Assembly: GCF_028583425.1 (NCBI RefSeq)
Contig: NC_072802.1
Coordinates: 18,547,926-18,611,925 of the forward strand
Reading direction: 5' to 3'
Length of the DNA: 64,000 bases
Source: Eublepharis macularius
Lineage: Eukaryota; Chordata; Lepidosauria; Squamata; Eublepharidae
Under the pieces are notes generated by a model, which saw nothing but the letters and a program-made list of their open reading frames with translations, did not search any database and was not told the origin of the DNA. The translations under genes were made by a program, and so were the position numbers. Shown here piece by piece: positions 1,205-63,888 of the stretch (the stretch's first letter is position 1; each line of letters opens with the position of its first letter).

Positions 1205-1318
1205 AACCAGAAGTCCAGTAGTACCTTAAAGACTAACAACATTTATTCTAGCATCAAGTGAGCTCTGACTCTCAAAGGCTCATGCTGGAAATGTTAGTCT
1301 TTAAGGTGCCCCTTGACC
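1205..1318. repeat. Short inverted copy of the 'AGTCCAGTAGCACC' repeat
   Basis: The left side reads 'agtccagtagtaccttaaag' and the right side reads back 'gttagtctttaaggtgcccc', so the piece folds on itself. It is related to the better preserved copies at 24948, 27786, 32537 and 39374. The hammerhead-like core of those copies is too eroded to recognise here. Confidence 0.55.
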
Positions 1319-2026
1319 TTCTTTTTGTTATGGATTCAAACCGAAGTCTGACACACCAATCACTAGGGTTGTGCAAAACAAAACAAACAAGATAGAAATA
1401 CATCTGAAAATCACTGTTTTATTTCATTAAAGCAGCTTCAAGAACAGTGAACCAAATCCAGGAAACGAAATTATAACCACACTCTCCCACTAAATGTTTG
1501 TGTCTTTTGTTTCAGTTTGGGTCTTACCTTGCTGTGAGGGCAGCATCTTGTTTTGCTTAACGGCATTCGCCGGTTGGATCCCAAGGGGAAAGAGCCCTTA
1601 TGCTATTAATGAACTCTGTTGGCAGGAAGGGGGGATGTGTGCAATGAGCAAGAGTCCCTCTTTTTTTTTTCTGTCACCACCCGGGCAATGGCATAGTCTC
1701 CCTGCCAGTTGGGTCCTTGCAAAAGGAGACCCTACCCTGCCTATCGGCTTTGGAAACATTTGGAAGGAGGATTGTTCAATCACAGGATGCTATTCTAAAA
1801 ACACTTCCCTGTGAGTAAGCAGTATTGAATGACATGGGACTCCCATCTTAGTAGACCTGTCTAGGATTGCTTCCTTTCCCCATCCTGCAAGCCATTCGAC
1901 TACTCTGCCCTTTCTAAAACAATCCTGCCTGCCCACAGCAAAAGGAAAACTTATGGAAAAAACACAGGTCTTTCTAGGCAAGAGGCAGGATTACGTTTCT
2001 TGTCTGCACTTGGGCAATGGAGATTG
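1319..2026. other. Unannotated intergenic stretch
   Basis: No gene or repeat family is recognised. Open frames reach about 106 codons, which is not unusual for chance. Confidence 0.5.
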
Positions 2027-9735: not shown

Positions 9736-10635
9736 TCACCGCACCACACTTGGAGTTGCCATGCATGATAAGCAAGTGCAACAGGCACAGACGCCCAGCA
9801 GCGCAGACAATGCAGCAGAAAACCGGGATTGCCGCTCATATTTGAGGGCTTTTTTGACCTCCTCGTTCGACTGAGAGATGTAGTCGAGGGTGTGCAAGAC
9901 GTTGTACTCAATGCTGTTCATGGTCTCCTGCTGTTCCGCCACCAAGACCTCCATGTGTAGGAAAAGAGAATAAAGCTCGGTAATCTGAGCTTCCAAGTCA
10001 AGCAGCTGTTGGTGGCGCACTTGAGCCATGGCCAGATGTTGCTTGGCTTTGAGCACATCGAGGTCTTGTCCGACAATGCGTGGCGCCATCGGGCTCTCCA
10101 CTAGTTGCTTGATGTCCTCTTCCCGCAGACTCAAGCCTGCCAGCTCGGTTTGTCTCCTGATCTGCTCCTTCAGCTTCTCCACATATTGGGTCTCCTTAGC
10201 ATAATGGCCCGTGATGATGTCGCGATAGCGGCCAATGAGGACTGAGAGCTGGTTGTGACGGATGCGGCTGATGGCCAACCGCTGTTCACCGCCCTTGGCT
10301 AGGGTCTCCTGGATGCTGTTGAGTTTGGGCTGGATGATTTTGGCCTCCTTGGTGAAAGAGTTTTTTATCTGGCTCAGCTCCTTTTTCTCTGTGCAAATGC
10401 TTTCCTCGGTGGTACAGCAGAGCACCTGCTGCTGCTTCTTGTCAATGTTCTCGGATAATTCCTCCAGCTTATCCAAAGCCACGGAGAGGCTGGTGATCTC
10501 CTCGAAGACTTTGATCATGGGATTGCTCTCTTCCTCTTTGAAAACAGGGTTATCAAAGGAGAACGTCTCATCCAGATCAAATGAGTCCCCATCTTCGTTA
10601 ACTCGGTTCCTCAGCTCCTCCAGTCTGTCCTTCAT
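9736..10635 (-). CDS. Syntaxin-11-like t-SNARE (299 aa, single coding exon)
   Basis: This is an intact frame of 299 codons with no internal stop. The protein begins MKDRLEEL, the same opening as syntaxin-11 and syntaxin-19. Residues about 38-155 form helical segments matching the Habc regulatory domain, with a linker at about 160-195. Residues about 201-265 are a Qa-SNARE motif, with the ionic zero-layer glutamine at Q235 (LVAEQ; LVESQ in syntaxin-1). There is no transmembrane helix. The tail has cysteines at 283, 285, 286, 288 and 291, the kind of cluster palmitoylated in syntaxin-11, and then a short ATPSVVR end. Syntaxin-11 also has all its coding sequence in one exon. The start was set at the ATG at 10633-10635 because an acceptor lies 18 bases upstream; the frame stays open further but would read through that acceptor. 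The family role is membrane fusion in exocytosis. Identity outside the SNARE motif looks low, so this may be a paralogue rather than STX11 itself. In human, STX11 is not next to PHIP. Confidence 0.85.
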   Translation of the reverse strand: MKDRLEELRNRVNEDGDSFDLDETFSFDNPVFKEEESNPMIKVFEEITSLSVALDKLEELSENIDKKQQQVLCCTTEESICTEKKELSQIKNSFTKEAKIIQPKLNSIQETLAKGGEQRLAISRIRHNQLSVLIGRYRDIITGHYAKETQYVEKLKEQIRRQTELAGLSLREEDIKQLVESPMAPRIVGQDLDVLKAKQHLAMAQVRHQQLLDLEAQITELYSLFLHMEVLVAEQQETMNSIEYNVLHTLDYISQSNEEVKKALKYERQSRFSAALSALLGVCACCTCLSCMATPSVVR

Positions 10636-10660
10636 ATTCGGCTCCCCTTGAAACTGGAAA
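10636..10660 (-). promoter_or_regulatory. 3' splice site and short 5' UTR of the syntaxin exon
   Basis: On the minus strand a pyrimidine-rich run (tgcctcttcttccacc) leads to TTTCCAG, with the AG at 10654-10655. The exon would then begin at 10653 and leave 18 untranslated bases before the ATG. This implies at least one upstream non-coding exon at higher coordinates, which I could not locate. Not confirmed by transcript data. Confidence 0.6.
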
Positions 10661-11619
10661 CATCGGTGGAAGAAGAGGCAGGTGAAACACACCCATCAGC
10701 TTTTACGTGGATTTTAAGGAAGTTTAGGAAGTTTTACGTCAGCTGCTCAAAATCAGAAAAAAAGAAAACTTCCCTCCCTAGAGCGCTTGCAAATATTGAC
10801 CTGGCAATAAGCTTGTAACCAGAGTTTACTCTACATCACATGGCTAACTCAGACCGGCTGGACTAGATTCTTTGCCAGGTGTGGGTGGCACACAGCCCAC
10901 TGCTATAACGTGAGCTGGAGGAATGAACTTTGCAGGAGCAGCCATGAGGAAATGTCAAAGGGGGGGGGGGAGAGCAGAGAGCCAGAGCCAATTGATTCCA
11001 GGGTGACTCTGTGCCAGTTTTAACTATGATTACCAATGCCAAAACCGGACGCAAGATGAGCCAGAACTAAGATAAATATCACCATATTTTTTTTTTCCAT
11101 TTATGAAATTTCAATACTTTCTTCAAACAGAAATTTCAAAGCAGCATGCTTTGTCAAACAAATATAAAACCTTATAAAATATTATAAAACTATTATGATG
11201 CAAAGAGAGGACCAAAGCAAAACCAATCTATAAATAAGGAGCCAAGCAGATTCAGGTCCCAAAAATCACAAACAAAAAGACAGGTTTTAACCTACTTTGC
11301 ACAGGACAAAAGAAAGATCAAAAATTTATGAACCGAAGATGGTGGTTTTAGAATTGCCTGGATTTGTTTTGTTCTGTTAGAAAATACAATTACTGAATTA
11401 CATGAGCCCTCTGTATTGATGGGGAGAAGGGGTATTTCTAAAAAAATTTGTGTTGCTTCTACATGGGAGGAAGGATTACATCCTTTGACCTCCCTCCAGC
11501 GCAGCCTGAATTGGTTGTTTTTTGGTTACTTGCTATCAATGTTTTTAAAAATATGCTGTGTGTTTAAAAAATATATCTGTTCACAGATCTCCCAGCATCA
11601 CATATGGCATGTGATGAAT
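10661..11619. other. Unannotated stretch upstream of the syntaxin coding exon
   Basis: This should hold intron and perhaps promoter sequence of the syntaxin gene. I see only a G-run at 10960-10969, A/T-rich sequence and no recognisable exon or CpG-rich promoter. Confidence 0.4.
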
Positions 11620-15509: not shown

Positions 15510-15766
15510 CAGGGCTTTTTTTCAGCAGGAACACGGTGGAACGGAGTTCGGGAACCTCTTGAAAATGGTCACATGGCTGGTGGCCCCGCCCCCTGATCTC
15601 CAGACAAAGGAGAGTTTAGATTGCCCTCCGCACTTCGCTGGTGCGGAGGGCAATCTAAACTCCCCTCTGTCTGGAGATCAGGGGGCAGGGCCACCAGCCA
15701 TGTGACCATTTTCAAGAGGTTCTGGAACTCCGTTCCACCACCTCTTTCCCCACAAAAAAAGCCCTG
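15510..15766. mobile_element. Foldback hAT, family A, perfect 8-bp target duplication
   Basis: The termini are CAGGGCTTTTTTT and AAAAAAAGCCCTG. AGTATCTG is repeated exactly at 15502-15509 and 15767-15774. Inside, about 110 bases ('aaaatggtcacatggctgg', 'ccgccccctgatctccagac') are followed by their own reverse complement around a short centre near 15637, so the whole element can fold as one hairpin. It encodes nothing. It sits between two copies of 'gtatggtaaaaccatagaga', so the target was already a small tandem repeat. Confidence 0.95.
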
Positions 15767-17045: not shown

Positions 17046-17283
17046 CAGAGCTTTTTTTCTGGGAAAAGAAGTGGTGGAACTCAGCGGGTTGCCCTCGGGG
17101 AAAATGGTCACATGGCTGGTGGCCCCGCCCCCTGATCTCCAGACAGAGGGGAGTTGAGATGGCCGCTTGGCAGCACAGAGGCCGATCTAAACTACGCTCT
17201 GTCTGGCGATCAGGGGGCGGGGCCTCCAGCCATGTGACCATTTTCAAGAGGTTCTGGAACTCCATTCCACTGTGTTCCAGCTG
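17046..17283. mobile_element. Foldback hAT, family A, right end shortened
   Basis: It starts CAGAGCTTTTTTTCTGGG and keeps both palindromic arms around about 17170. It stops at 'gttccagctga' without the terminal AAAAAGCCCTG. It interrupts the ATT-rich tail of the SINE that continues from 17284, since 'ataatatt' and 'aatattatt' flank it. Confidence 0.85.
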
Positions 17284-22972: not shown

Positions 22973-24947
22973 ACTTCCTCCAAGAAGCTTGCAGTGGCAT
23001 ATATGATTAGTTTATTTGTTTATTCATGCACAAGGTCTACAGATGATTGAATGCAAGCAGAGGCTGAGGTACTCTTTAGTAGGCAGGATCACAGGGATTG
23101 CTGAAGGAAATTTGCTCTCGCCGAGAAAGCACAGCCCTCCCGCTGTCTTTCTTAAATTTAGCTTTCTTCCTGTTTTCTATTGGAATTCAATTCTAAATAC
23201 AAACATTATCTGAAATCCAGATACAACTGAGTTAATCAATGCAAGTTTCTACTGCATGAAAATAATGGCTGGATTTCCATGAACACCATCTTGATCTATA
23301 ATTCTTTAAGAAAACTCAATCAAATTTTCATGAGCTGTATAATTCAGGAAGTATAATAAGATTCATAAATATTTAGGAAGTGGGCATTTCTTTGAGCATT
23401 AATTTAAATAAAATTGTTCAAAGTGACCATAGAAATGTTTAATATTCTTTCAAATACATTTGACTTTGGTTCATAATATCTGTTTCATTAGACTTGCAGC
23501 CTACCCTATTCCACGGCTCAGAAAAGGTAACCATTCTGTTTATTTATTTTATTTTATCATTAAAATGTAAAACAACTACAGTATTAAAAATACATGGTTG
23601 ATATCCACACAATTGAAAATGTCCCGAATAAATCAATATCCAGATTGTAAAACATTTCCATGAAGTTAAAAAAAGACAGACAGCTTTCTCAACAAGGTGG
23701 TTTCTAATCATTCCTTATCTTTGATTTGTTGGAAGAAGTTGTGCTGCCATATTAGCCTGTGCAAAATCCAAAAACAAGAACAAAATCTGTGTATTACCTT
23801 TTATCAGGGCCAACTGAATGTACACAAACACTGTGCAAGCTTTTGAGCTCACTAGAGCTCTTCATCGGGCTAGATATTATAAAAATTAAAAAGACAGGTG
23901 GATAGAAGTCGGATTTGTCAGACCGTGATTTTTTTTTATTAAAGCAAAATATTTAAATATTTAATAAAGCAAAACATTGTTGCAGTTACGTAAAGTATAA
24001 GTAAAAGGTAATGAAAATATGGAGTAGAAATAGGTTGGAACTCTTAATAGTGCTTTATTTTAAGGCTCTCAAAGGTTGGGATAATTAGTTATATTAAGTC
24101 ATAAGCAGTGTTCGTGTTAACAATTTTCCCCCCTCTCTTTATTATTACTAGAATAACAAGTAGAAATAGATTTGAACTTTGCATGTGATGCTTATTCTGG
24201 AAAAATATTCAACAGCTATTTTAATATCTATAAAGGTCATGACTCTGGTATTTTGTATTTTAATAATCCTTGTAGTACACAGTTTCACATCTGCTTGTCC
24301 CCTTTTCTCCCCTTCTTTTCTGTACCCTTTTTTTTTTGCTTTAACTACAGACTAACACGGCTAACTCCTCCAGATCTATCACCTTAGAGGAAACCGTCTC
24401 TACAGTGCCGTCTATTTAATGCCCCTTTTGTGAGCCTGTCCAGGTGATGGGCAGGGCGCAGGGATCGCAGCATCCTTGTTACGCAACCGTTCAGGAGGCT
24501 CAGAAGGCCAAGCCAGAGAGAGGGCACAGACACTCCTTCCCCGCCCCCAATCTAAAAGCCAAAGGTGTCCTTGTTACAAAGCAATCACTTCAAGTGTTTA
24601 TGGAAACCGGCACCGATTGCCGAGATAAAGTCAGGGCCAGATGGAAGATACAGGATATACAGGAAGTCAATATTCGTGCTTTTTGTGCCACGTGGCTTAG
24701 GAAGGATCATGCACTTAGAGCGATGCAGCCATCTGAAGAATGAATCATATTCAATAACACAGGGCTTTAAGAAAATCTGATAAGGACAACATATTTAGAC
24801 AAGCGAGTTGGGGAGGAGTAGAAGTACCGAATCGGCGCACAGGCAGACTGAATAAACAGACTGTACTTTCACTTAGCCTTAGGAAATGGTTATCCGATAA
24901 CACATGGTTTTGTTCTCTTCCACAAGTGCTGGCAGTCTTAACGTCAT
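22973..24947. other. Unannotated AT-rich stretch
   Basis: No gene is called. A diverged relative of the hammerhead-like repeat is possible at 23755-23880 ('caagcttttgagctcactag', 'agctcttcatcggg'). The phrase 'ctacagactaacacggctaa' at about 24346 is the far end of the same repeat type. Confidence 0.4.
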
Positions 24948-25172
24948 AGATCCAGAGGAGTGAGCCATGTTAGATTAACCAACTTTATTGTTGCATAAGC
25001 TTTCGAGAACCACAGCTCTCTTCGTCAGATGCATTGTCAGCTTTTGAGAACCACAGCTCTCTTCATCAGATGCATTGTCAGCTTTCGAGAGCCACAGCTC
25101 TCTTCGTCAGATGCATCTCACGATGCATGGTTAGTATTTAAGGTGCTATTGGACTCTTTACTATTTTGGTCT
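24948..25172 (-). mobile_element. 'AGTCCAGTAGCACC' repeat with three tandem hammerhead-like cores
   Basis: On the minus strand the element reads 'gagtccaatagcaccttaaa', then stem I, the cores, then 'gcttatgcaacaataaagtt'. Bases 24999-25121 are three 41-bp units. Each has CTGACGA or CTGATGA, an imperfect stem II (GAGAGC/GCTCTC type) and GAAA; the middle unit has AAAA instead. The family is dispersed in this window and in reptile genomes generally. I infer a Penelope-like or other retroelement origin from the ribozyme-like core only. Confidence 0.7.
25083..25128 (-). ncRNA. Hammerhead-like fold with adjoining stem I
   Basis: Reading the minus strand, ATGCATC (25122-25128), a 4-base loop and GATGCAT (25111-25117) form a 7-bp stem I. 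It directly abuts CTGACGA (25104-25110), followed by stem II (25087-25102) and GAAA (25083-25086). The base before stem I does not complete a standard NUH cleavage triplet, so activity is doubtful in this copy. Confidence 0.4.
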
Positions 25173-25348
25173 TAATATCAGTTTCCTTTGGAGGACAACA
25201 GAAGCCCTGTGTGGATGTCCAGAAGCACATGCACAGGATATGCATGAGCTCTGCCTCCAACATCTTTACATTGCACGGAAACGTCTACGGCAGCCCTATG
25301 TGCCCATAAGGGTATGCATGCAGTCTCTTCCACTCACTTGTGACCAGA

Positions 25349-25538
25349 GCCGTTTCCAGATGGCTTACCTGCCTCCAGAACGTTGCGCCATCTTGCGGGG
25401 AAAACGCGAAATATCGCATTTTCTCACGCGAGTTTTGCGCGACATCGCACAAAACTCGCACGAGAAAACGCGATATTTCGCGTTTTCCCCGCAAGATGGC
25501 GCGACGTTCCGGAGGCAGGTAAGCCGTCTGGAAACGGC
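25349..25538. mobile_element. CpG-rich near-perfect hairpin MITE, 190 bp
   Basis: The left arm starts GCCGTTTCCAGATGGCTTAC and the right arm ends GTAAGCCGTCTGGAAACGGC. The arms pair almost completely to a centre near 25443. The left half alone keeps about a dozen CpG dinucleotides (for example 'aaaacgcgaaatatcgc'), so it looks young or unmethylated. It has no coding capacity. Flanks give no certain target duplication, so the superfamily is unknown. Confidence 0.85.
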
Positions 25539-26252: not shown

Positions 26253-26653
26253 CAGGGCTCTTTTCTGGGAAAAGAGGTGGTGGAACTTAGTGGGTTGCCA
26301 GCACAGGGGGCAACTCTTGGCGGGAGGTGGTGCCCCTGGTACCACATGTGCGCACAAAGTGCATGCATGCTCCCAGGGCCAATGACATCACTTTGGGTCA
26401 GCTGGAACAAGGGGGGGAGTTTTTAAAAGTCTAAATCGCACTCTGTGAAAATGGTCACATGGCTGGTGGCCCCGCCCCCTGATCTCCAGACAGAGGGGAG
26501 TTTAGATTGCCCTCTGTGCCGCTGGAGCGGCACGGAGAGCAATCTAAACTCCCCTCTGTCTGGAGATCAGGGGGCGGGGCCACCGGCCATGTGACCATTT
26601 TCAAGAGGTTCCGGAACGCCGTTCCACCACGTTCCAGCTGAAAAAAAGCCCTG
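26253..26653. mobile_element. Foldback hAT, family A, longer subtype
   Basis: It starts CAGGGCTCTTTTCTGGG and ends AAAAAAAGCCCTG. The flanks are GCCATTGG and ACCGTTGG (6 of 8). Compared with 15510 it has about 150 extra bases after the left end ('gccagcacagggggcaactc'), also seen in the remnant at 672. The palindrome centre is near 26520. Confidence 0.9.
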
Positions 26654-26661
26654 ACCGTTGG

Positions 26662-27785
26662 GCTGACTGCAATTTTTTAGTTTTATTTTTCTCCTGCTTG
26701 CCAATAGAGCAGCAGCAGGTAAGGGGGTTGCCAGCAAGAGGCCTGCTGTAGCAAGAGACTTGGAGCCCCTGGGCGTAGCAAACATCCTGCCATCATTCCA
26801 AACTGGTTGGCAGCTGTGCAGTACCTTTTTTGCTAGTTGGTTGATCTCCTGGCCTTATTAATAGACAGACCGGCACCCTGGCGAACCAGGTTGTTCCAGA
26901 TCCCGGAGGCAGAGTGCATAGAGTGCAGCCCTGGAACAGAAGGGGTATGCAAATGAGGGTGTGCAGTGAGCCACAAGTGATGGGAGAAGTTGGCTGGAAC
27001 AGCTGCAGATCTGATTGCAGAGAATATAAAATATGAACTTTGTAGCAGGAAAAAATATATTTCACGAAGAATAGAAATTATCCCTCAAACTCCAAAAATG
27101 AAACTGGGAGTGGGGGAACCAGCTGAGAAATGAGATGAAATTAGAGAAGAATTTTAAGAAGTAGAGGCAAGTCTATTTCAATGCATCAGAAGATTTATGC
27201 CGGCTTTTATTTTACCCCCCTCCCTCCTTCTTGTGCTGTGAGTCAGCTTTATTATCTGCTTCCTCAGCCTGCAACAGACAATAGCTCCTTTCTGGAGCAG
27301 GGCTAGCTACAGCCAGGCTTCAAAAAGTCTCTGCACAGACCCATTACAGGGACCAAACGATCTGCACAGCTGGTGCGCCTGGGTCTTTTTTCCTCGCCTC
27401 ACCGTGGAAACATCTGGGAGGCAAGGAGAAGGAAGAGGTCCTCTTTTGGCTCAGCAAATATTGTTAGGCACAGCAGTATGTGAAACTGATAGCTGTGGCT
27501 TGCTGCTGAAAAGGAAGTCACGGACGCTTTGCACGTGGTTTGATATATGCTATGAGAAGCAGACATCCATGTGCTTCCATGGGGCCAGTGTGCCTCCTCA
27601 CATCAGGTGGGAGGAACGAAATATTGCTGGGTTCCCTGGCACTATTCAACAAGCTGTCAAAAAAGCTAAGCCAGCCAGCCTAAGTTCTCCTGGTCCTTTT
27701 CTAAATTGTTTGCCCCAGCACCCCAAATACGACGCGAGACAAAAAAGACAAATCAACTGCGTGTGGGTTCAACTATAGTAAAGAT
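26662..27785. other. Unannotated intergenic stretch
   Basis: No gene or recognised repeat. A 124-codon open frame at 27404-27778 shows no domain. Confidence 0.45.
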
Positions 27786-27940
27786 GCATGCATGCATCTT
27801 TACTATGCATGCATCTGACAAAGAGAGCTGTGGTTCTCGAAAGCTTATGCTACAAAAAAGTTGGTTAGTCTTAAAGGTGCTACTGGACTCTTTACTATTT
27901 TGTAACTATAGACTAACACGACTAACTCCTCTGGGTTCAA
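27786..27940 (+). mobile_element. 'AGTCCAGTAGCACC' repeat with hammerhead-like core
   Basis: A GATGCATGCA/TGCATGCATC hairpin leads into CTGACAA (a one-base variant of CTGANGA), then GAGAGCTGTGGTTCTC as stem II, GAAA and 'gcttatgctac'. It ends with 'aaggtgctactggactcttt' and 'agactaacacgactaactcc'. Confidence 0.65.
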
Positions 27941-28299
27941 CTAGTTTTACTTATTTATTTAAATGGCTCATCTACATCACTGCTTATTTAAACAAGCCAA
28001 CCATTTTGAGGGCGGGCTCCGCTAGGCAACCACTTGAGGCACCCACCGGGCAGGTCCACCCTGGCTCCAAACTCAGTCAACAATTATCGTTGACCTTATT
28101 TATCCCAGCCTGCCGAGAGGTGCCCAGCTTCATCTGCCTCCCCTGATGGGCCACAAGGCATCTACCAGGTTCGAGAGCTGCTGCTCAGCACCCAGGACAC
28201 TCCTTCACAGAGCCACCCAGCAGGACAGCATGTGATGGCCTGCTCCAAACACCCCTGCCCCCCCCATCACCATCATGCCTCAGGGTTTCCCACATCTAT

Positions 28300-28416: not shown

Positions 28417-28537
28417 CAGGGCTTTTTTTCAGGTGGAACACTGGTGGAATGGAGTTCCGGCACCTCTTGAAAATGGTCACATGGCTGGTGGCCCCGCCCC
28501 TTGATCTCCAGACAGAGGGGAGTTTAGATCACCCTGC
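28417..28537 (+). mobile_element. Foldback hAT, family A, left half only
   Basis: It starts CAGGGCTTTTTTTCAGG, keeps 'cctcttgaaaatggtcacat' and 'gatctccagacagagggg', and stops where the palindrome centre would be. Confidence 0.8.
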
Positions 28538-31730: not shown

Positions 31731-31862
31731 CAGGGCTTTTTTTCAGCTGGAACGCAGTGGAACGGAGTTCCGGCACCTCTTGAAAATGGTCACGTGGCCG
31801 GTGGCCCCGCCCCCTGATCTCCAGACAGAGGGGAGTTTAGATTGCCCTCCGCGCCGCTCTAG
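31731..31862 (+). mobile_element. Foldback hAT, family A, left half only
   Basis: It starts CAGGGCTTTTTTTCAGCTGG, with 'ggaacggagttccggcacct' and 'tctccagacagaggggagtt'. It is cut at 'ctccgcgccgctct', the palindrome centre. The following 200 bases are unclassified. Confidence 0.8.
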
Positions 31863-32248
31863 CCCAATGATCCCCACTGTGGCATCCGTGGACACTGGCA
31901 TGTTTCCCGTTATCCACTTTCTTCTTGAAAACAACCCATCCCGGTGGAATGGCTGGGGCATGGACCTGCTTGTTCCTGGCTGCACACGGCCCTCTAGAGA
32001 AGCAACCCACAAGGCGCTTTCCTTGTAGGTCAAATGTCCAGTCCATTCCTGATGTCAGGAAAAGGAAAGATGTATTTACTTTTTAAATGTATTTCCTTCA
32101 TTAACACCCCCGCCTTTCTCTCCAGTAGGGACTCAAAGTGGTTTACACCATTCTCCTCTCCTCCATTTTATCCCCACAAAAGCTCTGTTAGGCTGAGTGT
32201 GTGTGACGGGCCCGCGGTCACCCGGCAAGCTTTCAGGGCAGACGGTGG

Positions 32249-32919
32249 TAGCTTTGCCAGGTTCCTGCCAACAGCGGGCAATCTCTCAGTGATTGTGTAG
32301 CCTCTGATCATTGATCACTGGTGATCAGCAGGAAGAGGCTGGCTGCCTGGAGATTGCATGCCGCTGACGGAGGCCAGGAGGTAGGCCAGGGAAACGGAAG
32401 CAAACACGCCCATGTCCCTGGCTGATGATGATGCATCTTCTGGTGCAATCTGGAAGCAATGGTGTTGCATTGGGGCAGATTCTTTTGGAATCAGCCCCGA
32501 TGCGACCACGTCGCTTCTGGGTTACATTGGAAGTGATCAAAAAGAGTCCAGTAGCACCTTTAAGACTAACCAATTTTATTGTAGCATAAGCTTTCGAGAA
32601 TCAAGTTCTCTTTGTCAGATGCCTGATACAGAGACTGGTCAAACACAGAAGAGCAGGAGAGGGAAGAGGCAATTAGGGGGGGAGGGGGAGGGAGCAATCA
32701 AAACATTCCTTTGCTAGTATATGTAAACATCTCCTTTTAGTGTGTGTATCAGTTGGCTTCAAAGGAGTTTGCCCTGTTAGTTTGTAGAAGCCAAACAGCT
32801 AGACCATCCAATTCCAAGTGATGTCAGCAGCAGGTGCTGCAACGTGCACACACACACAAGGTGGAGAACCCACTGCCACCCTCTCTCCCACCAGTTGCTG
32901 GGGGGACCTTGCAACTCTA
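32249..32919. mobile_element. hAT-like (family B/C ends) insertion
   Basis: It begins TAGCTTTGCCAGGTTCC and ends 'gggaccttgcaactcta', degraded TAGGGTTGCCAG-type termini in inverted orientation. It fills the gap in the SINE and hosts an 'AGTCCAGTAGCACC' repeat at 32537. Confidence 0.55.
32537..32640 (-). mobile_element. 'AGTCCAGTAGCACC' repeat copy
   Basis: The plus strand reads 'agtccagtagcacctttaag', then 'ataagctttcgagaatcaag' and 'ttctctttgtcagatgcctg'. On the minus strand this gives CTGACAA, a GAGAA/TTCTC stem II and GAAA. It is inserted within the larger hAT-like element. Confidence 0.7.
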
Positions 32920-39330: not shown

Positions 39331-39373
39331 CCTAGAATTCTGCAAATGTTGCAAGGAAGTGGATCAAGATAGA

Positions 39374-39602
39374 TCGCCGTCTTGGTTTGTCTGTAGCTCT
39401 AGAAAAGAGCAAGAGTTCTGTAGCACCTACCAGACTCACAAAATTTGTGGTAAGCTATGAGCTTTCATGAGTCACAGCTCACTTCTTCAGATCAGGTATC
39501 TCACTTCAGGTATTTGAAGAAGTGAGCTGTGGCTCACAAAAGCTCGTACCCTACCACAAATTTTGTCTTATAGGTGTTACTGGACTCTTGCTCTTTTCTA
39601 CT
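39374..39602. mobile_element. Palindromic 'AGTCCAGTAGCACC'-related repeat
   Basis: The left side on the minus strand has CTGAAGA, a GTGAGC/GACTCAT stem II and GAAA. The right side on the plus strand has a diverged version ('tttgaagaagtgagctgtgg', 'ctcacaaaagctcg'). Outer parts 'agaaaagagcaagagttctg' and 'ggactcttgctcttttctac' pair. It looks like two copies in head-to-head orientation. Confidence 0.65.
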
Positions 39603-40334
39603 GCAAGGAAGTGCGCATTCAAATTTAAGTGAGGTACTGATCCATGCTGATGTGTTTCCAAAGTTTAATGCTCTCACAAGACCCACGTAGATGTTTTCTG
39701 CTTTGGCTTCTTAGCTAAGTCTTTCTCTTTCATCTAAAACATCTTTCCCCACAGATTTAAGGCAAAATTTGCACTGCTTTTTCCACATTTTGTCATGCAT
39801 TAAATTCTTAGCTTCTGGCTGTAAATTCTTTGCAAATGCTTCCGGAAAAAGGAGGGAACACATCTTTATAGCAGTATTACCATAACAGCAGAGAAGATCA
39901 ACAGACTACAGGAAGACACTACTAGTAGCTAGTCTGCAGGGATGTATTTTTTTTAAATCAATATAAACTCTACAAAGAACTTTCCACTGATATGATAAAT
40001 GCACAGGCTTCATCAAAGCGCACCAAAAGACTTTATTCCAAAAGAAAACGGATTTCGGACCAGTAGTAAACATGACGTACGTTGCCTATTTTCAGAAGCA
40101 TTTATGAGTGTTCTGTTTGTTGCCCTTTAGGCACACAATGAGCTTCCTCGAGTAATTCTAATCGACCAGTTGCGTGGATTGAAACCAAGGAGACCGGGAA
40201 TGCTCCATTATTACTGCCAATGACATCATTAATTACAACTGAAGACAGACAGCCAGGGAGTTGGATTGCTAATTAATAAAACCAGCGACACCTCAGAGTG
40301 CTCGGGAAGAGAGTTTCGAAACAGAGGCAAGATG
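39603..40334. other. Unannotated intergenic stretch
   Basis: AT-rich, with no gene or recognised repeat. Confidence 0.45.
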
Positions 40335-41539: not shown

Positions 41540-41795
41540 TTTCATGCCATAACTTGATGCCATATTACCATGCTTTGCTTTCACACTTTCATGCCATAAC
41601 TTGATGCCATATTACCATGCTTTGCTTTCACACTTTCATGCCATAACTTGATGCCATATTACCATGCTTTGCTTTCACACTTTCATGCCATAACTCGATG
41701 CCATATTACCATGCTTTGCTTTCACACTTTCATGCCATAACTTGATGCCATATTGCCATGCCGTAACTGCTTTGCTTTCACACTTTCACAGCAGC
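41540..41795 (+). repeat. 47-bp tandem repeat, five copies
   Basis: The unit starts TTTCATGCCATAACTTGATG and ends GCTTTGCTTTCACAC. Copies start at 41540, 41587, 41634, 41681 and 41728. The first four are nearly identical and the fifth carries an insertion ('atgccgtaact'). Confidence 0.95.
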
Positions 41796-42868: not shown

Positions 42869-43130
42869 CAGGGCTTTTTTTCAGGGGGAATGTGGTGGAA
42901 CGGAGTTCCGGAACCTCTTGAAAAGGGTCACATGGGTGGTGGCCCCGCCCCCTGATCTCCAGACAGAGGGGAGTTGAGATTGCCCTCTGCGCCGCTCAGC
43001 GGCGCAGAGGGCCAATCTAAACTCCCCTCTGTCTGGAGATCAGGGGGTGGGGCCACCACCCATGTGACCATTTTCTCCTAGGGCAACCCGCTGAGTTCCA
43101 CCACCTGTTTTCCCAGAAAAAAAAGCCCTG
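42869..43130. mobile_element. Foldback hAT, family A, perfect 8-bp target duplication
   Basis: ATCTTTAG lies at 42861-42868 and 43131-43138. The termini are CAGGGCTTTTTTTC and AAAAAAAGCCCTG. The palindrome centre at about 42998 reads 'gccgctcagcggcg'. Both arms are intact, though the outer ends differ, as in 47034. Confidence 0.96.
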
Positions 43131-47033: not shown

Positions 47034-47292
47034 CAGGGCTTTTTTTCAGCTGGAACGCGGGGGAATGGAGTTCCGGAACCTCTTGAAAATGGTCACATGG
47101 CTGGTGGCCCCGCCCCCTGATCTCCAGACAGAGGGGGTTGAGATTGCCCTCCGTGTCGCTGAGCAGCACAGAGGGCAATCTCAACTCCCCTCTGTCTGGA
47201 GATCAGGGGGCGGGGCCACCGGCCATGTGACCATTTTCTCCAAGGGCAACCCACTGAGTTCCACCACCTCTTTTCCCAGAAAAAAAGCCCTG
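47034..47292. mobile_element. Foldback hAT, family A, perfect 8-bp target duplication
   Basis: ACTGAAAC lies at 47026-47033 and 47293-47300. It starts CAGGGCTTTTTTTCAGC and ends AAAAAAGCCCTG. The left outer arm carries the 'gttccggaacctcttgaaaa' version and the right carries 'tttctccaagggcaaccc', as in 42869, so these two belong to one subfamily with unequal arm ends. Confidence 0.96.
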
Positions 47293-60004: not shown

Positions 60005-60835
60005 TTAGCAACAAAACCCATTGTGGGGAAAAATACAACGGGCTCTAGAAAGGGGAGGGCAGGCAGGCATTCCCTCCTCCTCTGTCACTGATCCCAGCCA
60101 GATGAAGGAGGGGGGGTGGGCATGACCACCTCCTCTACAACTGATCCTGGCTGGGTGGAGAGGGGTGGGCATTGCCACCTGCTCCACTCCTGATCCCGGC
60201 TGGGTGAAGAAGGGACGGGCATTGCCTCCTACTCCGCGCCTGATTCTGGCTGGGTGAAGTGGGGGAGGGCACTGTTGCCTGCTTTCCGCCTGATTCCAGC
60301 AGGTTGAACTGGGGGGTGGGGCACTGCCTCATGCTCCACTCCTGATCCCAGCCGGGTGAAGGGGGGTGGGCATTGCCACCTGCTCTGCTTCTGATCCCAG
60401 CTAGGTGAAGGGGGTGGGTGGGCATTTCCTCCTGCTCCACGGCTGATCCTGGCTGGGCGAAGGGTGGGGGCAGGCATTGCCACCTGCTCTGCTCCTGATC
60501 CCAGCTGAGTGAAGACGGGGAGCGGGCATTTCCACCTGCTCCCAGCTGGGAGTATGGCAGGCGGGCATTGCCACCTGCTCCACTCTTGATTACAGCTCGG
60601 TGAAGGCAGGGGATGGGCATTGCCACCTGCTCTGTTCCTGATCCCTGCTGGGTGAAGGCGGGGGGCGGGCATTGTTGCATGCTCCACGCCCGATTCCGGC
60701 CTGAGCTTTTCACCGTGTTGCGCTCTCTGGAGCAATGGCTGCCTCATCTGGGCTTCCCTCTACAGCAGCGACCTCTGGTGGTGCACCAGGGTAGGAAGTG
60801 AGTTGTCTTGAATACGCTTAGCCTTTAAATAGTAG
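60005..60835. repeat. Minisatellite-bearing element, copy 1 (PHIP intron)
   Basis: About 13 units of 50-55 bp, each containing 'gggcattgccacctgctc' and 'tgatcccagctgggtgaagg'. The unique left flank is 'tagcaacaaaacccattgtg' and the right flank 'ggaagtgagttg' to 'agcctttaaatagtag'. Both flanks recur around the array at 62984, so the array and its flanks form one unit that exists in at least two places. Minus-strand open frames up to 192 codons (Gly-Gly-Asn-Ala-His repeats) follow from unit lengths near a multiple of three and are not credible genes. Confidence 0.9.
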
Positions 60836-62983: not shown

Positions 62984-63888
62984 TAGTAACAAAGCCTGCT
63001 GTGGGAAAAAATACAGTGGGCTCCAGAAAGGGGGGGCAGGTAGGTGGGCATTGCCTCCGTGTCCGGGACTGATCCCAACTGGGTGAAGGTGGGGGTCAGA
63101 CATTGCCACCTGCTCTGCTCCTGATCCCAGCCGAGTGAAGGGGGAGGGCGGGCATTGCCACCTGCTTGGCTACTGATACCAGCCGGTGAAGGGGATCGGG
63201 CATTCCTGCTTGCTCTACATCTGATCCCAGCTGGGTGAAGGGGGGCAGACATTGCCACCAGCTCCGTGCCTGATCCCAGCTGGGTGATGGCGGGGGTCAG
63301 ACATTGCCACCTGCTCTGCTCCTGATCCCGGCCAAGTGAAGGGGAGGGGCGGGCATTGCCACCTGCTCGGCTACTGCTACCAGCCGGTGAAGGGGATCGG
63401 GCATTCCTGCTTGCTCTACATCTGATACCAGCTGGGTGAAGGGGGGCAGACATTGCCACCTGCTCCGTGCCTGATTCCAGTGGGTTGAAGGGGGAGTGTG
63501 CATTGCCATCTGCTCTGCTCCTGATCCCAGCTAGGTGAAGGGGGGAGTGGGCATTGCCCCCTGCTCCACACCTGATCGCAGCGGGGTGAAGGCGGAGAGT
63601 GGGCATTGCCACCAGCTCCGCTCCAGATCACAGCTGGGTTGGGGGGGCGGGCATTGCCCCCTGCTCCACACCTGATCCCAGCGGGGCGAAGGCGCGGTGG
63701 GTGGGTATTACCACCTGTGCCGCTCCTGATCCCAGCTGGGTGAAAGCGGGGGGCAGACATTGCTGCCGTGGCGCGCTCTTGGAGGGATGGGCTGCCTCTT
63801 CTGGGCTTCCCTCCATGGCAGTGCCCTCTGGAGGCGCACCATGGTAGGAAGTGAGTTATATGCAACATGGTTAGCTTTTTATGTAGTA
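62984..63888. repeat. Minisatellite-bearing element, copy 2, with 4-unit higher-order repeat
   Basis: About 15 units of roughly 50 bp with the same consensus and flanks as copy 1 (left 'tagtaacaaagcctgctgtg', right 'ggtaggaagtgagttatatg' to 'agctttttatgtagta'). Within it, 63091-63291 and 63292-63490 are nearly identical blocks of four units each (201-bp period), so the array has grown by duplicating blocks. It has the same orientation as copy 1. Confidence 0.9.

Follow-up and report, generated by a model that had tools for sequence, protein, structure and literature searches.

Minimal hammerhead ribozymes, usually without helix III and arranged in tandem, are carried by Penelope-like retroelements (PLEs), where they are perhaps dimeric and where their role is unknown, as set out in the accessible parts of three papers (PMC7761336, PMC6155905, PMC7229834), by way of which we also know the minimal type I PLE hammerheads of Cervera & de la Pena 2014 and Luense 2017. 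PAc, described in 2024, is a Poseidon-clade PLE of Anolis carolinensis, a GIY-YIG element with its hammerhead at the junction of pseudo-LTR and frame (PMC11167929). According to the available portions of that paper, the PAc frame begins at stem II, the ribozyme cut lies at 26, an optional tail has 30-40 bp, the usual start of reverse transcription is an AC-rich stem loop at 111-118 bases from the beginning of the frame, and both strands of the target DNA are cut and extended. Furthermore, the PAc ribozyme needs the element's own protein to cut, cleavage in the presence of protein being C3/G8-dependent, and its loss is compatible with insertion in vitro, where ribozyme-dead RNA went in no less well than the wild type; no ends at the cut site turned up in RNA-seq (PMC11167929).

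In bdelloid Penelope elements, as far as the accessible text goes, an inverted pseudo-LTR closes the insert, duplications are of 8-10 bp, one inverted end bears a 31-bp tail, and the head-to-head junctions, which the paper reads as self-priming, hold palindromes (PMC3846280). For amniotes, a 2018 survey of human repeats states in its available part that Penelope was not reported in any of them (PMC5753468), and a 2022 study, likewise available in part, aligned human fossils to a turtle Penelope protein (PMC9004415). In the literature searched, to which subscription journals mostly do not belong, no paper was found on the present repeat family, nor one joining hammerhead, Penelope and squamate, and a search with the letters of the repeat itself gave, among the matches listed, only unrelated ones.

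The present repeat lies in the window, by which is meant the whole 64-kb stretch of DNA that was analysed. It is very probably the 3' end, or pseudo-LTR region, of a GIY-YIG PLE, scattered as short insertions that are often inverted fold-backs and carrying a minimal hammerhead, its Penelope-like membership following from a link to an endonuclease together with the marks of insertion. A sequence-only reading of the same DNA had supposed descent from a ribozyme-bearing Penelope-like retroelement, and this is now well supported by endonuclease-linked copies, covarying stems, a one-sided tail and target-site duplications. With the published minimal PLE hammerheads, in the parts of those accounts available, the repeat shares type I form, lack of helix III, thousands of dispersed copies, tandem arrangement and proposed dimers; set beside them by description, it differs in that inner units have no permitted triplet and an A precedes stem II.

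The three-unit array and its hammerhead form

All copies of the repeat in the window are decaying remnants, and a Pfam search of 10 of the 61 window frames of at least 110 aa gave no PLE frame. Positions within the element are given on a map that takes the 27.8-kb copy as its reference and the base after A9 as +1. The insertion with the array is made up as follows.

24942..25168, minus strand: whole fold-back insertion, with inverted end, junction palindrome, three hammerhead units and 3' tail, GTCTTAA standing on both sides
24935..24941, no strand: likely target-site duplication, copy 1, GTCTTAA, from the flank search
25169..25175, no strand: likely target-site duplication, copy 2, GTCTTAA, adjoining the inverted arm
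25128..25168, plus strand: inverted arm, element +41 to +81 (93% identity, 41 bases)
25111..25128, no strand: palindrome ATGCATC-GTGA-GATGCAT at the head-to-head junction
25073..25116, minus strand: hammerhead unit 1, CUGACGA and GAAA intact, non-permitted triplet CUG
25032..25075, minus strand: hammerhead unit 2, CUGAUGA, G12->A (AAAA), triplet CUG
24991..25034, minus strand: hammerhead unit 3, complete minimal type I core, stem I of 5 bp, stem II of 6 bp, triplet CUU
24942..24973, minus strand: distal AC-rich tail (CTAACATGGCTCACTCCTCTGG...), of which 24952-24973 corresponds to +92 to +113 of the 27.8-kb copy (86% over 22 bases)

The remaining copies are these.

27776..27931, plus strand: second copy, unit at 27809-27852, core CUGACAA, short palindromic inverted start
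32541..32624, minus strand: third copy (32.5 kb), a single unit and arm, stopping at the proximal end +72 (94% over 83 columns)
39362..39601, minus strand: older-subfamily fold-back with a unit in each arm, 39453-39496 minus and 39508-39551 plus
1212..1324, plus strand: decayed copy with inverted end, unit at 1249-1286, part of CUGANGA lost
23831..23874, minus strand: distant cousin unit, stem II preserved through compensatory changes, nhmmer E = 1.6
24320..24370, plus strand: tail-only remnant (80% identity over 51 columns)

A 7-base match anywhere within flanks of 85 bases is common, being found at 1138 of 3000 random places, and a 7-mer fixed at one edge and found again within 40 bases is uncommon (84 of 20000). 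The second copy is flanked by the 12-bp repeat TGGGTTCAACTA at 27764-27775 and 27932-27943 and the older fold-back by the 12-bp repeat TGCAAGGAAGTG at 39350-39361 and 39602-39613, a length that 37 and 22 of 3000 random places reached in the same search for the 27.8-kb and 39.4-kb copies respectively; for the third copy, at 32541..32624, no target-site duplication was found. Model R1, built from seven window rows, finds nine window units at 1e-7 or below and its next match at 0.9, seven of the nine being its own rows, and the R1 score of the cousin unit is not independent because the cousin was one of these rows.

The window has other features besides. A single-exon syntaxin frame lies at 9736-10692 on the minus strand, with about 298 codons from the first ATG, a Cys-rich tail and no internal stop (Pfam Syntaxin 9.5e-13, SNARE 5.1e-6; best solved relative syntaxin-1A, 1.6e-30), and it recalls syntaxin-11 and syntaxin-19, which we take to be without a membrane anchor. 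Seven near-perfect palindromes of about 165 bp, two of them shorter, are 85-97% alike and look like a palindromic MITE family.

15553-15721, 17094-17253, 26440-26610, 28462-28535, 31775-31863, 42912-43075, 47077-47238: palindrome copies

Several of the seven have Rfam microRNA model matches below threshold, and the low-E Rfam matches in the window are mostly of microRNA models on palindromes. About 200 bases from the array there is a 148-bp inverted repeat at 25370-25517, 91% self-complementary, of which no second copy was found in the window at 1e-4. Minisatellites at 60111-60666 and 63046-63763 have a common unit of about 52 bp, and one at 41540-41761 has a 47-bp unit.

The array is a 41-bp tandem repeat present 2.9 times at 24998-25116 (TRF, score 217), its units being read on the minus strand with core C3 at 25110 in unit 1, 25069 in unit 2 and 25028 in unit 3. 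TRF and the alignment of the cores confirm what the sequence-only reading had seen, namely three 41-bp minus-strand units with CTGACGA, CTGATGA and CTGACGA followed by GAAA, AAAA and GAAA; as these are repeats of one another they are not three independent observations. Unit 1 is laid out as AUGCAU CUGACGA A GAGAGC-UGUG-GCUCUC GAAA GC UG..., unit 2 as AUGCAU CUGAUGA A GAGAGC-UGUG-GUUCUC AAAA GC UG... and unit 3 as AUGCAU CUGACGA A GAGAGC-UGUG-GUUCUC GAAA GC UU AUGCAA, and the stem II of GAGAGC/GCTCTC type that had been given for all three holds for unit 1, units 2 and 3 having GAGAGC/GUUCUC. In units 1 and 2 the sequence continues straight into the next unit and the triplet CUG is not NUH; the earlier statement that the cleavage triplet is not canonical overlooked the best unit, unit 3, where the permitted triplet C-U-U (24999-24997) has its predicted cut after 24997 and where UGCAU (25033-25029) pairs with AUGCA (24996-24992) as stem I. 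What had been taken for a 7-bp stem I, ATGCATC/GATGCAT, is actually the palindrome at the head-to-head junction with the inverted copy of the element's end. A type III reading with this pair as stem I was rejected, there being no UH ahead of the stem.

Among the nine window units only unit 3 has all core letters and the triplet intact together with both stems complete, and it is in form a minimal type I hammerhead with a permitted CUU triplet, at which cleavage is predicted. In the textbook hammerhead core, stem II starts directly after A9; here an A intervenes in 59 of 60 units of an older subfamily and in 49 of 50 units of a younger one, both described below. The CUGANGA...GAAA core and the NUH triplet before stem I are present, and between GAAA and U16.1 there is just GC, with no helix III within any one unit, so that of the two things whose absence the sequence-only reading would have counted against itself, an NUH triplet and a stem III, the first was found and the second is absent from the unit. 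The Rfam hammerhead models, by which that reading had proposed to check its claim, gave no match at E up to 10 in the 64-kb window, none in 20 of the 30 older-subfamily loci and none on one intact unit alone, probably because helix III is absent. The repeat is hammerhead in form, and as a strict Rfam hammerhead it fails on helix III and on the model threshold.

Folded singly, unit 3 is predicted to have stem I plus stem II as its minimum free energy (MFE) structure, at -12.8 kcal/mol, and as 8 of 200 shuffles of the unit fold equally well the folding energy alone is weak evidence. The full stem I and II form the MFE structure of four of the nine window units (unit 3 and those at 27809, 32624 and 39508), a fifth has a stem I of 2 bp and the other four fold otherwise. 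GCAU/AUGC was chosen as stem I for the 27.8-kb copy because it gives both stems; a stem III read there as GC-UUAU-GC, with cleavage at CUA, was dropped since it leaves no stem I. Two units could pair with each other in a 4-bp AGCU/AGCU helix, which predicted folds do not favour: the two-strand active fold through AGCU reaches -22.3 kcal/mol, the best dimer -33.0 kcal/mol and two monomers 2 x -12.8.

Two subfamilies can be told apart. In the older (60 distinct units from 30 loci, of which L060 and L078 are one place) the commonest letters are GGUAU CUGAAGA A GUGAGC-UGUG-(A/G)CUCAC GAAA GC UC AUACC, and in the younger (50 distinct last or only units) UGCAU CUGACGA A GAGAGC-UGUG-GUUCUC GAAA GC UU AUGC. 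The differences between them are compensatory, with U-A for C-G in stem I and U-A for A-U in stem II, and in both every invariant core position has the canonical letter most often (60 + 50 units). Core and NUH are wholly intact in 28 of 60 older and 24 of 50 younger units; H17 is C in 53, U in 6 and A in 1 of the older, so that G occurs in 0 of 60, and U in 43, G in 3, A in 2 and C in 2 of the younger. The outer two pairs of stem I are formed in 50% and 47% of older units and the innermost pair of stem II in 50%, the outermost pair of stem I being formed in 18% of the younger. The commonest change in the invariant core is G12->A (20 of 60 older, 13 of 50 younger units), as would be expected from CpG decay of CGAAA.

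It may be that the origin is the same, in a PLE, and that the hammerhead-like fold is a non-catalytic structured RNA, such as a binding site for the PLE protein. The missing helix III, the extra A, the unfavourable predicted active folds and the want of an Rfam match all suit such an RNA, as do the undiminished insertion of ribozyme-dead PAc RNA and the lack of RNA-seq ends at its cut in the available account (PMC11167929); binding of protein alone, however, would not require that the catalytic positions and NUH be canonical in both subfamilies, and with protein present PAc RNA is cut in a manner that depends on C3 and G8. We regard a wholly non-catalytic fold as a possible but unlikely account.

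Tandem arrays across the genome

The genome to which the window belongs (2.24 Gb, 72 contigs) was searched with the array and with the 39.4-kb fold-back, which have at least 112 matches (40 scored of 3432 first-look candidates) and at least 82 matches (40 scored of 4417) respectively; the match counts are lower bounds and the first-look numbers are of unverified copies. At 30 array loci the tally of runs has 171 units, three of them the window's own, and the R1 search gives 177. They form 65 runs, of which 19 are single, 11 of two, 24 of three and 11 longer, three-unit runs being over-sampled since resemblance to a query of three units decided which loci were retrieved.

The last or only units of these runs (n=65) have the triplet CUU in 54 cases, CUA in 4, CUC in 2, CUG in 3 and another in 2, making 60 of 65 NUH, whereas the inner units (n=106) have CUG in 100, CUA in 2, CUU in 2 and CGG in 2, making 4 of 106 (Fisher p = 5e-35, which overstates independence because the copies are related). 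When runs of at least two units are taken alone the last unit is NUH in 43 of 46. Intact cores are alike in frequency in the two positions (54/106 inner, 32/65 last or only), and AGCU is retained in 99/106 inner and 54/65 last or only units. Units occur on both strands in 18 of the 30 array loci, and of the 36 plus-strand runs 19 face a partner head to head no more than 200 bases away.

The permitted triplet at the end of runs, its rarity further in and the equally intact cores have led us to a tentative suggestion, one that we think somewhat unlikely to be right, that the tandem array could be a built ribozyme. Its upstream units would be catalytic strands without a cleavage site and the last unit the sole substrate, the core and an AGCU/AGCU pairing giving helix III in cis and one defined cut per transcript. 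Arrays that qualified for cis two-unit folding, by an intact inner core, a permitted last triplet and a 41-base step, number 22 of 46; in 12 of the 22 a stem I of at least 4 pairs and the full AGCU helix can form in cis, and in all 22 this fold is predicted to lie 8 to 27 kcal/mol above the MFE. Given such unfavourable predicted folds and the protein requirement of the PAc ribozyme, activity, if there is any, likely needs protein or co-transcriptional folding.

The inner junction is commonly GAAAG-CTGACRATGCAT-CTGACGA (L003-L032), with a second CTGACGA-like word ahead of each core, which may be a clue to how the unit was duplicated.

Animal non-LTR retrozymes, in the available part of their description, have in common with the present repeat tandem repeats with type I hammerheads, and differ in repeat length, in the inner triplets that are missing here and in the PLE-type ends (PMC7229834). 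A non-autonomous element of that kind, moving as small RNA circles made by the ribozyme and using PLE enzymes in trans, would account for short tandem units and for fold-backs too short to encode a PLE protein, and retrozymes and PLEs are said there to co-occur, with PLEs the suggested helper. It would seem improbable for this repeat all the same: the 41-bp unit is far below the roughly 170-400 nt of the published animal retrozymes (PMC7229834), the ends fit PLE insertion, and with no permitted triplet in 102 of 106 inner units, circles of unit length could hardly be released.

Insertion marks, an endonuclease and covariation

At 30 older fold-back loci (29 places, one of them the window's own), 18 have duplications of at least 7 bp (7-15 bp) as against 5 of 300 control places, these being stretches of 30-60 bases taken at random from those loci. 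Of the two arms in the 18 loci, the long one reaches +114 to +128 (median 122) and the short one +77 to +107 (median 87), the difference being 14-43 bases with a median of about 36, and at least 27 in 17 of the 18; in 5 of the 18 the unit of one arm is poorly matched (7-11 mismatches of 30) and its placement less sure. Downstream of the hammerhead, on the transcript strand, about 50-100 bases end in an AC-rich tail, and the combination of inverted end, variable target-site duplication and one-sided tail is that of Penelope-type insertions.

The accessible description of PAc (PMC11167929) agrees with this on several points. The predicted cut here, after +25, is like that of PAc about 25-26 bases from the start of stem II, the long-arm ends at +114 to +128 (18 loci) compare with PAc priming at 111-118, and the tail of 14-43 bases with 30-40 bp. 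Unlike the PAc frame, which starts inside the ribozyme, unit 3 has no such start codon; 41-bp tandem units go unmentioned in the available parts of the PAc paper, and the comparison is one of described features. The bdelloid Penelope elements, to judge from the accessible text (PMC3846280), share with the fold-backs the plan of inverted end, duplication, one-sided tail and junction palindrome, and carry protein frames and longer pseudo-LTRs, whereas the inserts here are of about 160-250 bp.

A GIY-YIG endonuclease domain (PF01541) has 78 matches in the genome, not necessarily all in PLEs, of which 21 were examined (15 with loci and 6 of the other 63), and the repeat module stands beside the endonuclease in two of the 21. 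At L044 (contig C3) a decayed unit, spotted by eye and matched by R1 at E = 0.28-0.7 only, comes after the endonuclease frame (PF01541 3.5e-8), with the tail behind it; some 1.5 kb farther on there is another unit (R1 2.6e-5), and across the 15 GIY-YIG loci R1 gives weak matches only, from 0.08 to 0.74. At L083 (contig C1) the endonuclease frame is itself decayed, and downstream of it, in the same orientation, stand a unit of the older subfamily (R1 1.3e-13) and the tail. The two loci can be aligned all the way from the endonuclease, across the 3' region, to ribozyme and tail, and agree at 388 of 494 aligned bases (78.5%); the alignment has many gaps ahead of the ribozyme and scores 150.5 against 36 for the best of 100 shuffles, and from motif start to C3 the loci measure 487 (L044) and 460 (L083) bases. 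The last 160-187 bases before the ribozyme are by themselves a modest match, scoring 26.5 where none of 300 shuffles exceeds 24. At the copy density of the window, about six per 64 kb, two such neighbours are expected by chance, so that the link rests on the shared alignment and the spacing; it covers the older subfamily and one further lineage. The 21 GIY-YIG loci examined gave neither an endonuclease frame nor an autonomous element for the three-unit subfamily, nor a reverse-transcriptase frame joined to the module; other GIY-YIG loci have open frames of 533-722 aa that resemble PLE reverse transcriptase by eye, none of them joined to the module.

Other elements with hammerhead-like sequence were seen along the way. 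L034-L036 (contigs C6 and C3) are long open PLE-like frames of 533-722 aa with GIY-YIG ends, two of them 3.6 kb apart on opposite strands of contig C6, and their 3' flanks have ATGAAGAAGAAG and then CGAAACG (L034, L036) or CAAAACG (L035), a hammerhead-like start region. L046 has on its minus strand, at base 524 of the reverse complement, CTGAAGA...GCGAAACGTC, a complete-looking hammerhead core in another repeat, with a stem II of 6 bp and a stem I of 3 bp.

Inverted arms and target-site duplications are also what a fold-back DNA transposon, MITE-like and with long terminal inverted repeats, would leave, and true palindromic repeats of such a look lie nearby. The ends of the present repeat are not mirror images, however, one arm being longer by 14-43 bases in the 18 loci, the duplication varies from 7 to 15 bp in length, the copy at 32.5 kb has a single arm, and an arm is continuous with the GIY-YIG endonuclease frame, all of which makes a transposon of this kind very improbable indeed.

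The stems of the hammerhead were examined by covariation. Over seven window copies, 87% of 77 cells are paired, falling to 21-45% when partners are slid, and changes on both sides occur in 8 of 11 pairs (stem I 5/5, stem II 3/6), as in 0 of 500 shuffles; of these seven rows two come from one fold-back, one is the distant cousin and one has a core deletion. Five rows, without the cousin and the core-deletion row, give 5 of 11 double-changed pairs (shuffles 0 to 7 of 500, by measure). Eight rows that include the two endonuclease-linked copies are 81.8% paired (0/500 shuffles; at most 41% when slid), again with 8 of 11 pairs double-changed (1/500 shuffles; 0 on other measures). An alignment of 150 units (A3) was kept out of the count, being fitted to structure and mostly of one subfamily. 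Within the older subfamily pairing is 0.768 against a shuffle mean of 0.754 and maximum of 0.773, not above shuffle, which would mean that single copies are not under selection and decay freely once inserted. It is between source lineages, and not within the older subfamily, that compensatory change keeps stems I and II.

A strict minimal type I descriptor, written after the sequence was seen, matches a single place in the window, unit 3, where first-order Markov controls average 0.015 matches each (200 controls), and a loose one, with up to 2 core mismatches, has five window sites, four in the family, against 1.4 per control (25 controls). Pattern scans of viral contigs gave no match, and a scan of the genome contig collection gave 2 bacterial matches, both with the stems missing by eye and about what chance would give by estimate. 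Chance likeness in an unrelated tandem repeat, for which the short core and stems and the 1.4 loose matches per 64 kb of control might speak, is extremely unlikely in the face of the covariation, the canonical core letters in two subfamilies and the rarity of strict matches in controls.

Proposed mechanism and significance

If the repeat is the 3' end of a GIY-YIG PLE, the PLE protein would have two start points for reverse transcription, both of them downstream of the ribozyme, and would prime from each of the cut strands; we suggest that such two-strand priming would produce inverted arms of which one alone bears a tail. A multimeric PLE transcript would presumably be cut by the ribozyme. 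A unit without helix III might work with a second core, the AGCU that ends GAAAGCU being self-complementary, or with the help of protein, and in arrays the last unit would supply the cleavage site whilst any unit may supply the core.

A PLE 3' end with a minimal hammerhead, which is most likely what the repeat is, belongs to a known kind, and the asymmetric arrays are the striking part. A frequent repeat, usually left unclassified according to the sequence-only reading, gains an identity and is tied to PLEs by an endonuclease frame and not by likeness alone. Since the fold-backs preserve two end zones whose spacing is close to that of PAc priming in vitro, genomic ends in large number could serve for mapping where PLEs prime. 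Finally, the one-sided loss of the triplet in the arrays means that natural sequences make the dimer hypothesis for minimal hammerheads directly testable.
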